NCBI RefSeq assembly: GCF_023051145.1
Contig: NZ_JALKFS010000005.1
Span: forward strand, 2,745,733-2,809,732
Source: Williamsia sp. DF01-3
Lineage (GTDB): Bacteria; Actinomycetota; Actinomycetes; Mycobacteriales; Mycobacteriaceae
Reading direction: 5' to 3'
Length of the DNA stretch: 64,000 nucleotides
Within the stretch, counting starts at the first letter, position 1; the number at the start of each line of letters is the position of its first letter. The position numbers and the translations under genes were made by a program. The notes under the pieces were generated by a model. The model made no database searches and was not told where the DNA came from. It worked only from the letters and a program-made list of their open reading frames with translations. This document shows positions 48,137-52,179 of this stretch, one piece after another.

Positions 48137-48239
48137 CAGAAGACATGAGCACACCGTGAAGTTCTTGCGATGAGCACGTTTCGGACGTAGACCGAGGTCG
48201 TAGCGGGCAATGCCGCTCGACCTCCAAGTGAGGAGAGCA

Positions 48240-51164
48240 GTGGCAGGCAAGGCCCGCGTGCACGAATTGGCCAAAGAACTGGGCGTGACGAGTAAAGAAG
48301 TACTCGCCCGACTCAGCGAACAAGGCGAGTTCGTCAAATCAGCGTCGTCGACCGTAGAGGCCCCGGTGGCCCGGCGACTTCGCCAGTCCTTCCCCGGGAA
48401 GGACGCTCCCGCCGCCAACGGTGGAGCACCATCATCAAACGCCGGAGGCAGCGCCCCGGCAGCAAAACCATCAGCAGCCAAGCCGGGTGCCGCGCGCACC
48501 TCGGCTCCTTCGGCACCGCCACCCAGCGGTTCGGCTCCGGCCGCGCCGTCGACCGGCGCAAAGCCCGGCGCCCCGCGCCCGGCGGCTCCCGCAGCCAAGG
48601 CGACACCGGCAGCACCCCCGGCGCCCCCGGCAGCAACTCCGGCCCCGCAGAACCGGCCCGCTCCCCAGCGTCCGGCTCCGGCGGCTCCTCAGGCTCCCGC
48701 AGAATCGGCAGCCTCCGCGACCCCGCCTGCGGCTCCTTCCCGTCCGGCTCCGGCCGCACGTCCGGCCGCTCCGGGCCCCAAGCCCGGTCCGCGTGCGCCG
48801 CGGGTCGGTAACAACCCTTATTCGACGGCCGCTCCGGTCGAGCGTCCGGCACCACGTCCGGCACCCGGCGCGGGCGGTCCCCGCCCCGGCGGCGGCCAGC
48901 GCCCCGCACCCGGCGGCGCGACCGGCGGACGCCCGGCACCGGGTCAGGGCGGTCCCCGTCCCAGCCCCGGCAGCATGCCTCCCCGTCCCAATCCCGGTGC
49001 CATGCCGGCTCGTTCGGCCCGCCCAGGCGGTCCGGGCGGACCCGGTGGTGCGCGCGGCGGTCCCGGTGGCGCACGTGGCGGACCCGGTGGCGCCGGTGGT
49101 GCGCGCGGCGGTCCCGGTGGCGGCGGCGGTGGATACCGCGGCGGTCCCGGCGGCGGTGGCGGCGGAGCCCCGACAGGTGCTCCCGGTGGTCCTCCCGGTG
49201 GGTTCCGCGGACGCCCGGGTGGCGGCGGTCGTGGACGTGGTGGCGGCGCAGCCGGTGCCTTCGGTCGCCCCGGCGGTGCAGTCCGTCGTGGTCGCAAGTC
49301 GAAGCGGGCGAAACGCGCCGAGTACGAGAGCATGCAGGCTCCCGCAGTCGGCGGCGTGCGGTTGCCACGTGGCAACGGCGAGACCATTCGCCTTGCGCGC
49401 GGTGCATCGCTGTCCGACTTCGCCGACAAGATCGACGCGAACCCGGCAGCACTGGTGCAGGCGCTCTTCAATCTCGGTGAGATGGTCACGGCCACCGAAT
49501 CGGTGAACGACGAGACGCTCGAGCTGCTCGGCGGCGAGATGAACTACGTCGTGCAGGTCGTCAGTCCTGAAGACGAAGATCGCGAGCTGCTCGACTCCTT
49601 CGACCTCACCTACGGCGAAGATGCCGGTGGCGAGGAAGATCTCGAGCAACGTCCGCCGGTGGTGACCGTCATGGGTCACGTCGACCACGGTAAGACGCGA
49701 CTGCTCGACACGATCCGAAACGAGAAGGTCCGCGAAGGCGAGGCCGGCGGCATCACCCAGCACATCGGTGCCTACCAGGTCCTCACCGAACTGGACGGCA
49801 ACGAACGTCTGGTCACCTTCATCGACACCCCGGGTCACGAGGCGTTCACCGCCATGCGTGCCCGTGGTGCCAAGGCCACCGACATCGCGATCCTCGTGGT
49901 CGCGGCCGACGACGGTGTCATGCCGCAGACGGTCGAGGCGATCAACCACGCACAGGCGGCCGACGTGCCGATCGTCGTGGCGGTCAACAAGATCGACAAG
50001 GAAGGTGCTGATCCGCAGAAGATCCGCGCTCAGCTCACCGAATACGGTCTGGTCGCCGAGGACTTCGGCGGCGACACCATGTTCGTCGACATCTCCGCCA
50101 AGCAGGGCACCAACATCGACGCGCTGCTCGAAGCGGTTCTGTTGACCGCGGATGCCTCACTCGACCTGCGGGCGAACCCGGACATGGACGCGCAGGGTGT
50201 GGCCATCGAGGCCCACCTCGACCGTGGCCGCGGCCCGGTGGCAACCGTGCTCGTGCAGCGCGGAACGCTCAAGGTCGGCGACTCGATCGTCGCCGGAGAC
50301 GCCTACGGACGTGTCCGACGGATGGTCGACGAGCACGGCGCCGATGTCACGGCGGCGCTGCCGTCGCGCCCGGTCCAGGTCATCGGTTTCACCTCGGTGC
50401 CCGGTGCAGGCGACAACCTGCTGGTCGTCGACGAGGACCGCATCGCCCGCCAGATCGCCGATCGCCGCAATGCGCGCAAGCGCAATGCGCTGGCCGCACG
50501 CAGCCGCAAGCGGATCAGCCTCGAAGATCTCGATTCGGCTCTGAAGGAGACTTCGCAGCTGAACCTGATCCTCAAGGGCGACAACTCGGGAACCGTGGAA
50601 GCGCTCGAAGAAGCGCTGCTCGGTATCGAGATCGACGACGAGGTGCAGTTGCGGGTCATCGACCGCGGTGTCGGTGGCGTCACCGAGACCAACGTGAACC
50701 TGGCGTCGGCATCGAACGCGATCATCATCGGGTTCAACGTCCGTGCCGAGGGCAAGGCAACCGAACTCGCGAACCGCGAGGGTGTCGACATCCGGTACTA
50801 CTCGGTGATCTACCAGGCCATCGACGAGATCCAGAGCGCGCTCAAGGGCATGCTCAAGCCGATCTACGAAGAGGTCGAACTGGGTCGGGCCGACATCCGT
50901 GCGATCTTCCGTTCGTCGAAGGTCGGCAACATCGCGGGTTGTCTGGTCACATCGGGCATCATGCGCCGGAACGCCAAGGCCCGTCTGTTGCGCGACAACG
51001 TCGTGATCGCCGAGAACCTCACCATCTCCTCACTCAAGCGCGAGAAGGACGATGTCACCGAGGTCCGCGACGGCTACGAATGCGGTCTCACGATCACGTA
51101 CAACGACATCAAGGTCGACGACGTCATCGAAACGTACGAGTTGCGGGAGAAGGCACGCGAATGA
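48240..51164 (+). CDS. infB: Translation initiation factor IF-2
   Basis: A 974-residue IF-2, the GTPase that places fMet-tRNA on the 30S subunit and joins the 50S. The short N-terminal helical domain ([20 protein letters not shown]) is followed by a very long disordered Ala/Pro/Gly/Arg linker to about residue 360, as in other actinobacteria. The G domain has GHVDHGKT (from about residue 479), DTPGHEAF and NKID. Domains II, III and C2 end [19 protein letters not shown]. The start GTG follows AGGAG. The last 19 codons and stop are repeated directly downstream, and the TGA stop overlaps an ATG that begins the first extra copy. Confidence 0.97.
49021..49260 (+). repeat. Gly/Pro/Arg-rich coding repeats in the IF-2 linker
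   Basis: Irregular repeats of [12 protein letters not shown] and GGPGGGGGG units, written with CGGCGGTCCCGGTGG-type DNA. They lie in the disordered linker, so length variation between strains is likely. Confidence 0.8.
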
Positions 51165-51235
51165 CGTCGGCGACGGACATCAAGGTCGACGACGTCATCG
51201 AAACGTACGAGTTGCGGGAGAAGGCACGCGAATGA
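51161..51235 (+). CDS. 24-residue ORF duplicating the IF-2 C-terminus (copy 2)
   Basis: The ATG overlaps the infB TGA (ATGA). It encodes [20 protein letters not shown] followed by KARE. Residues 6-24 are identical to the last 19 of IF-2; the first five come from the linker. Ribosomes ending infB could restart here without a Shine-Dalgarno sequence. Whether a peptide is made is unknown; it could equally be a by-product of DNA duplication. Such a fragment holds only the last strand and helix of domain C2 and would not fold alone. Confidence 0.4.
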
Positions 51236-51306
51236 CGTCGGCGACGGACATCAAGGTCGCCGACGTCATCGAGACCTACGAGTTGCGGGAGAAGGCCCGG
51301 GAGTAA
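51232..51306 (+). CDS. 24-residue ORF duplicating the IF-2 C-terminus (copy 3, diverged)
   Basis: This starts at the ATG overlapping the stop of the previous mini-ORF (ATGA) and ends with TAA. It encodes the same peptide with Asp 10 changed to Ala. Its other differences from copies 1 and 2 are synonymous, which is the pattern of coding sequence that has diverged under selection rather than of random decay. It may be the original end of a different infB allele. The DUF503 gene starts 17 bases later. Confidence 0.4.
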   Translation: MTSATDIKVADVIETYELREKARE

Positions 51307-51323
51307 TCCCGGACCAGGACGTC

Positions 51324-51617
51324 ATGTTTGTCGGCTCCCTGGAGATCGACCTACTGCTCGGAGACGTCCGGTCCCTGAAGCAGAAGCGCTCAGTGGTGCG
51401 GCCCATCGTCGCATCACTGGCGCGTCTGCGGGTTTCGGTCGCCGAGGTCGACGACCACGATCTGCACCGCAGAGCGCGGATCGGGGTCGCGGCAGTCGCC
51501 ACCGATTCGCGGCACATCGGTGAAATACTCGATGCCAGTGAAGATCTGGTCATGCAACGGCCTGAGGTCGAAGTGTTGTCCGTCCGGCGCAGAATTCGCA
51601 GCAGCGACGACGACTGA
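51324..51617 (+). CDS. DUF503 family protein
   Basis: A 97-residue DUF503 protein, a small family commonly encoded between infB and rbfA. MFVGSLEIDLLLGDVRSLKQ followed by KRSVVRPIV is the signature, with AEVDDHDLHRRARIGVAAVA in the middle. Function is unknown; co-location with infB and rbfA suggests a link to ribosomes. The ATG is 17 bases after the last repeat ORF. No strong Shine-Dalgarno sequence is visible. Confidence 0.85.
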   Translation: MFVGSLEIDLLLGDVRSLKQKRSVVRPIVASLARLRVSVAEVDDHDLHRRARIGVAAVATDSRHIGEILDASEDLVMQRPEVEVLSVRRRIRSSDDD

Positions 51618-51690: not shown

Positions 51691-52179
51691 ATGGCAGACC
51701 CCGCACGGGCACAGCGGTTGGCGAAGCGGATCTCATCGATTGTCGCCACGGCCATCGCCAAGGAAATCAAGGATCCCCGCCTGGCCTACGTCACCGTCAC
51801 GGACGCGAAGGTGACCGGTGATCTACACGATGCAACGGTTTTCTACACGGTGATGGGTCCGTCGCTCGACGAAGAACCCGATTACGCGGCAGCCGCCGCG
51901 GGTCTGGCCAAGGCGACCGGCATCCTGCGGTCGAAGGTCGGAGCCGGAACCGGTGTCCGCTTCACCCCGACACTGAGCTTTGTGTTGGACAAGGTGCCCG
52001 ACACCGCACGTGATCTCGAAGAACTACTCGAGCGCGCCCGCCAGCAGGACGAGGAAGTCGCCCGTCTGGCCCGCGATGCCGCCCCGGCCGGCGACCCGGA
52101 CCCCTACAAGGAACCAGCCCGTGCCGATGGCGATCCCGGCGACGAAGGTGCGGGTACTGCGGGTGCTGACGAAAGGTGA
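51691..52179 (+). CDS. rbfA: Ribosome-binding factor A
   Basis: A 162-residue RbfA, a KH-like protein required for late 30S maturation and cold adaptation. [20 protein letters not shown] starts the fold; [19 protein letters not shown] and [16 protein letters not shown] are typical. The C-terminus has an acidic disordered tail of about 35 residues. The start has AAGGAGTGAGG upstream. Its stop overlaps the next start (GTGA). Confidence 0.95.

Follow-up and report, generated by a model that had tools for sequence, protein, structure and literature searches.

The window, the 64,000-nt stretch of DNA analysed here, encodes on its forward strand an initiation factor IF-2 of 984 amino acids (infB), followed by a DUF503 gene and rbfA. 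The coordinates of the features are collected in Table 1. The last 19 codons of infB, together with the stop codon, are present three times head-to-tail with a period of 71 nt, as the original prediction had recognised. The three 71-nt units occupy positions 51105-51175, 51176-51246 and 51247-51317, and units 1 and 2 are without any difference over their 71 nt. Over the 57 coding bases copy 3 differs from copy 1 at six, of which five are synonymous and one replaces Asp5 by Ala, and it ends in TAA; base comparison bore out the earlier account of these differences and of the identity of copies 1 and 2. The ATG that had been described as overlapping the stop (ATGA) is likewise found, at 51161 and at 51232, and opens two frames of 24 codons. 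Residues 886-983 of IF-2 match PDB 1d1n_A, a solved IF-2 fragment deposited as INITIATION FACTOR 2, and the 19 repeated residues close this matching stretch.

With a score of 363, the array is the top of 12 TRF rows in the window, and a two-copy pattern has 2 matches in the window compared with 0 in 100 dinucleotide shuffles. Overlapping tandem repeats with periods of 12-51 also occur at 49026-49166, in the Gly-rich N-terminal part of IF-2. A terminator and promoter scan gave nothing above threshold. Literature searches on infB, Williamsia, Gordonia and tail duplication found no published description of an infB-end array.

Table 1. Features at the 3' end of infB in the window
Feature	Position	Strand	Basis or remark
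infB (IF-2, 984 aa)	48210..51164	+	Pfam IF-2, GTP_EFTU, IF2_N; last 19 codons and TGA are copy 1
Copy 1, functional infB end, TGA	51105..51164	+	Sequence repeat
Mini-ORF 1, 24 codons	51161..51235	+	-1 frame relative to infB, ATGA overlap; no Pfam match at E 0.1
Hairpin 1, left arm	51161..51174	+	Pairs with 51185-51198, one mismatch, 93%; starts with the ATG of mini-ORF 1
Linker 1, 11 nt	51165..51175	+	Repeats part of copy 2 in inverted form over its first 10 nt
Copy 2, same as copy 1, TGA	51176..51235	+	Sequence repeat
Hairpin 1, right arm, within copy 2	51185..51198	+	Inverted repeat
Mini-ORF 2, 24 codons	51232..51306	+	ATGA overlap; no Pfam match at E 0.1
Hairpin 2, left arm	51232..51245	+	Pairs 100% with 51256-51269, loop of 10 nt
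Linker 2, 11 nt, same as linker 1	51236..51246	+	Sequence
Copy 3, last copy, TAA	51247..51306	+	Likely descended from the native end of infB on the chromosome, judging by G005 and G008
Hairpin 2, right arm, within copy 3	51256..51269	+	Includes the Asp to Ala base
17-nt spacer preceding the DUF503 gene	51307..51323	+	Same in G003 and G006; one base off in G004
DUF503 gene, 3' of the array	51324..51617	+	Pfam PF04456
rbfA	51691..52179	+	Pfam PF02033

Inverted linkers between the copies

The linkers stand in an inverse relation to the copy that follows them, a feature missed in the original prediction. Read together, ATGA and bases 1-10 of the 11-nt linker reverse-complement positions 10-23 in the copy that follows: ATGACGTCGGCGAC, made up of ATGA at the stop and ten linker bases, pairs in this way with GTCGNCGACGTCAT, with GGACATCAAG as the loop. 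Because of the Asp to Ala base of copy 3, the pairing is perfect with this copy and has one mismatch with copy 2. To score the relation, the 24 nt preceding each extra copy were locally aligned with the inverted first 32 nt of that copy. By this measure all 15 linkers of the 11 genomes with an intact array reverse-complement sequence close by (scores 11-17; shuffle means 4.3-5.1), and 0 of 500 shuffles reach the observed values. The linker of the decayed array of Gordonia soli (G141) scores 7, which is reached by 12% of shuffles and is not above chance. The native sequence preceding copy 1 is already a weak quasipalindrome with a score of 5-11, so some inverse similarity is to be expected at this site.

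After the stop, the linkers measure 11 nt in the Williamsia muralis group, the W. soli group and G. rhizosphera, 14 in G. soli, 17 in W. sterculiae, 18 in W. herbipolensis and CHRR-6, and 21 in G219, where they form a perfect 17-bp pair. When eight representative linkers were paired with each lineage's copy in a cross-table, four (G023, G025, G097 and G387) scored highest with the copy of their own lineage, and three (the window's genome G000, G219 and G141) had no preference for it. The eighth, from G005, pairs best with a GTCGAT copy, as found in its single-copy sisters G002 and G007. The linker of the W. soli group, TGACGTCATCGAC, exactly inverts the GTCGATGACGTCA of the two sisters; the group's own copies now read GTCGAC, and the linker scores 13 with the GTCGAT copy and 11 with its own. 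We regard it as a fossil of the template and as a sign that the pairing is not strictly kept.

Arrays and relics among related genomes

Comparison of infB 3' ends and spacers among relatives, a check called for in the original prediction, shows that the array is not confined to the window. In the genus of the window (Williamsia, judging by the named records), six of the nine genomes, the window's own included, have two or three copies. Three copies are present in G000, G004 and G006, two in G003, G005 and G008, and one in G001, G002 and G007. The records of this genus named in genome_contigs are W. muralis, W. soli and Williamsia sp. 1138. A search of 401 genomes of the family, with a pattern gap that restricts periods to about 72 or less, found seven with the array, one of them (G387) from another genus. 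A scan of genome_contigs (84,980 species by its description), with a pattern that requires GACATC at both copies, returned ten stretches, from Gordonia or Williamsia except for one record labelled Kitasatospora; arrays whose copies begin differently, and those in other orders, are poorly covered. That record (NZ_JNYV01000001.1, titled Kitasatospora arboriphila NRRL B-24581) has an exact 3,167-nt stretch around infB in common with Williamsia G006, and it is probably a mislabelled genome.

Across the 88 readable infB ends, 11 arrays and 4 relics were identified. The 11 intact arrays and the relics in G355, G141 and G181 have repeat z values above 10. The relic in G324 was called by eye: its z of 4.8 is under those of the uncalled G109 (5.8) and G030 (5.1), and the call is based on the open frame, the same TGATG joints and the position of G324 as sister to G181. 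Intact arrays are present in six of nine Williamsia genomes (g1), two of the seven readable genomes of g18 (eight in the genus) and the single W. sterculiae genome (g16); the genus of G. rhizosphera (n=59) holds two intact and four decayed ones (G. soli G141, G355, G181 and, by eye, G324). No array was found in 12 genomes from other genera, and 24 genomes from other families had no second tail match, bar a weak one in G408 (E 6e-4, 38% identity). The 88 ends remain from 89 loci after G132 was dropped. Its contig C147 (contig end 9477) stops exactly at GACATC of the infB tail, as expected if a repeat broke the assembly; no infB body was found in this assembly, and G132 was set aside as an example of a large insert. 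Two further observations were made by eye: many single-copy Gordonia loci (among L079-L135) have a long GC-rich hairpin between infB and rbfA, some with a T run, which looks terminator- or attenuator-like, and at L043 (G021:C509) infB appears to be followed directly, where rbfA or DUF503 would be expected, by a frame similar to the presumably MATE-like transporter gene that the window has at 53.2-54.5 kb.

Short tandem repeats are prone to miscounting, and an assembly error had been raised earlier as one option. However, the same array, with lineage-specific bases, occurs in relatives that were sequenced separately, which rules out such an error for the presence of the array and makes it hardly credible as an explanation; the exact copy number in the window strain comes from one assembly. 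The relatives also indicate which copy is old. In the Williamsia soli pair, G005 and G008, the last copy ends CGG GAC TGA like the only copy of G002 and G007, and the first copy ends otherwise; the last copy of G005 runs into the spacer of G007, from which the spacer of G002 differs by one base and that of G008 by more. The last copy is therefore the old chromosomal end, and the upstream unit was added. The proposal that the array contains the end of a diverged infB allele thus stands insofar as the last copy is an old end; no foreign donor was found.

All intact arrays share one start base for the copy as well as the junction CGAC(C)GGACATC. Such sharing is not needed in independent events, so one old event followed by many losses fits as well. 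On a quick infB-body tree (990 columns; support is below 80% at 29 of 85 inner branches) the 15 genomes with arrays or relics require at least 11 changes, a figure that stays at 11 when G324 is omitted, and the 11 intact ones alone require 8. Losses leave no scar, and one old gain with many losses is therefore possible. The shared junction favours a single old gain; the lineage-matched linkers and the scattered distribution favour repeated gain.

Origin of the array

One way to account for the array is that the mini-ORFs have a role: ribosomes ending infB would restart at the overlapping NTGA, either producing peptides of the IF-2 tail or simply passing translation on to the next gene. A start overlapping the upstream stop is an arrangement for translational coupling, and PMC12548453 describes NTGA as by far the commonest spacing motif between neighbouring prokaryotic genes. 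The start codons of the array overlap the upstream stop in the same manner; the downstream frame, however, is a duplicate tail and not a gene. GGGAGAAGG lies 7 nt upstream of the ATG at 51161 (by eye), and the 15 intact extra copies have in-frame ATG (7), GTG (3) or TTG (1) in 11 cases. However, three copies have only CTG, the copy of W. herbipolensis has none of these four codons in frame, and that of G. soli is shortened to 11 residues, MTSPTDIKVDD, before a stop, so that neither start codon nor frame is conserved. With a start codon that varies across the 15 intact extra copies, a conserved peptide is unsupported. The best evidence for coupled ORFs is the excess of synonymous changes: summed over the extra copies, 29 differences from copy 1 are synonymous and 8 are replacements (the pairs depend on one another, and copy 1 is under constraint of its own), as against 20% synonymous for random single changes (35 of 171; 20 of 57 for transitions alone). 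This could mean that the extra copies are selected, but it could also come from turnover of the array, since any copy is able to become the functional end, with no peptide function involved. In addition, three Gordonia genomes (G355, G181 and G324) have a diverged ATG frame of 23, 24 and 21 codons, uninterrupted between the infB stop and the TGATG at which it joins rbfA; this frame is probably an old tail duplication and might possibly serve as a translation relay from infB to rbfA. Against a role, the extra copy is absent from close relatives, the 24 residues cover no more than part of the C-terminal domain and are unlikely to fold alone, and the ATG already follows from the inverted linker, as the inverse of GTCAT is ATGAC (CAT read backwards is ATG), without any selection. 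The peptides coupled to IF-2 termination that were originally proposed are thus weakly supported: we consider a role for them unlikely, though not negligible, and the mini-ORFs look like by-products.

Selection could instead act on an RNA hairpin at the infB stop with a job in pausing, coupling control or mRNA protection. Stems are found in all intact lineages, and 51150-51280 folds at -56.6 kcal/mol compared with -42.4 +/- 3.4 for shuffles (z -4.24; reached by 0 of 200). In a ten-row alignment, in which W. sterculiae is one base out of register and was counted mostly as unpaired, four stem pairs have changed on both sides, in G. rhizosphera, CHRR-6, W. herbipolensis and copy 3 of the window. 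The four pairs were reached by 4 of 500 shuffles, the covariation score by 8, the percentage paired by 17 and the further pair types by 162; with the partners slid by -1 there are also four pairs, with a covariation of 0.118 vs 0.105 and 47.6% vs 76.5% of cells paired. The number of further pair types is thus no more than chance. However, linker 1 reaches over copy 2 to pair with copy 3 in the lowest-energy fold, which lacks the two local hairpins, the W. soli-group mismatch is retained in both genomes, the structure is absent from close relatives, and the 3 Rfam matches are all under the gathering score. Moreover, according to PMC8794818, template switching can produce the stem of a hairpin in a single event and imitate compensatory changes without selection, the latter on evidence for maintenance that its authors call circumstantial. 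A selected hairpin is accordingly quite improbable.

The layout of the array also recalls the sites used by integrases, in which inverted arms surround a core of 8-10 nt and are followed by a block of identity to the gene end. A tyrosine-recombinase element could have entered the 3' end of infB, provided a new tail and later been lost, leaving attL and attR side by side, which would agree with the last copy being the native end in G005 and G008. Because of this likeness, phages, plasmids and viral contigs were searched, and in these collections none with the infB end as an attachment site was found. The phages gave 288 records, of which none covers 80% of the query and the 20 listed are weak and short, and the 20-residue tail was unmatched; no viral contig had either pattern. 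The plasmid collection gave 114 records, one covering 80%, and the best three of the 20 listed, from Nocardia, Nonomuraea and Streptomyces, each fall at the end of a long infB frame (940, 714 and at least 1020 aa). The stop and the arm are no more than 4 nt apart, and the linkers follow the host's own infB in four of eight representatives. We therefore hold an attachment-site remnant to be very improbable.

Tandem duplication by template switching of DNA polymerase, carried as a nearly neutral and fast-changing array, is in our judgement the probable origin, on the strength of sequence comparison. The succession of a direct copy, a short inverted copy and a direct copy is the footprint that two template switches would leave. 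In the event we envisage, the nascent strand would fold back once past the infB stop, and the stop TGA would pair with TCA in GACGTCATCGA about 40 nt upstream. Next, 11-17 nt of infB would be copied backwards, yielding CGTCGTCGAC and with it the linker, which is present as an inverted copy. The strand would then return to the right template at GACATCAAG, the start point that the arrays share, and the tail would be copied again. The direct copies could thereafter expand or contract by slippage or unequal crossing-over; two and three copies are found in very close genomes. The harm done by the array is small, because the first copy completes IF-2 and the last retains the native end and spacer. 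The ATGA mini-ORFs would come from the ATGAC inverse; re-initiation may translate them, and no peptide function is needed.

Template switching is made likely by the scattered arrays and relics, the 15 of 15 inverse linkers, the four representative linkers that fit their own lineage best, the four stem pairs changed on both sides, the fossil template of the W. soli group and the old end standing last in G005 and G008. Against it, the copy start at the same base and the common junction of every intact array fit one old event too, the synonymous excess could reflect selection on the extra copies, the G. soli stem is at chance, and four of eight representative linkers do not single out their own copy; moreover, the -1 register has as many doubly changed pairs, and native infB is already weakly palindromic at the site. 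The order direct, inverted, direct is that of the tandem inversion duplications of Salmonella; known cases of these are kilobases long, whereas the inverted part at infB is 11-17 nt. In E. coli quasipalindrome mutation, as outlined in PMC7202029, the nascent strand templates itself and imperfect inverted repeats become better ones. The array would resemble this process in having an inverted repeat perfected by nascent-strand copying and in the clustering at weak palindromes, but here the proposed switch goes together with the direct duplication of 60 nt from the end of a gene, in several species and at one base. With the template-switch hairpins treated in PMC8794818 it would have in common a stem from a single event and paired changes that are possible without selection; those hairpins are described there for RNA genes, whereas the infB hairpin joins coding copies of an essential gene.

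The array is thus real and unusual, and is best explained as a template-switch duplication, a new form of a known type of mutation, with a function of the small ORFs still a chance. Related species here offer template-switch duplications, some intact and some decayed, as a natural series at a single base of an essential gene. With this series one can ask how such events recur, how the match between inverted arms is kept and whether a start codon from an inverted copy can seed a coupled small ORF. A bolder reading, which we think rather unlikely, sees the tail of infB in Gordonia and Williamsia as a natural template-switch hotspot, at which direct-inverted-direct modules, each carrying a ribosome-binding site and a start codon, are built repeatedly; in G355, G181 and G324 such a module would have become a lasting small ORF relaying translation from infB to rbfA. 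If this were true, a small gene would have been born from the end of an essential gene.
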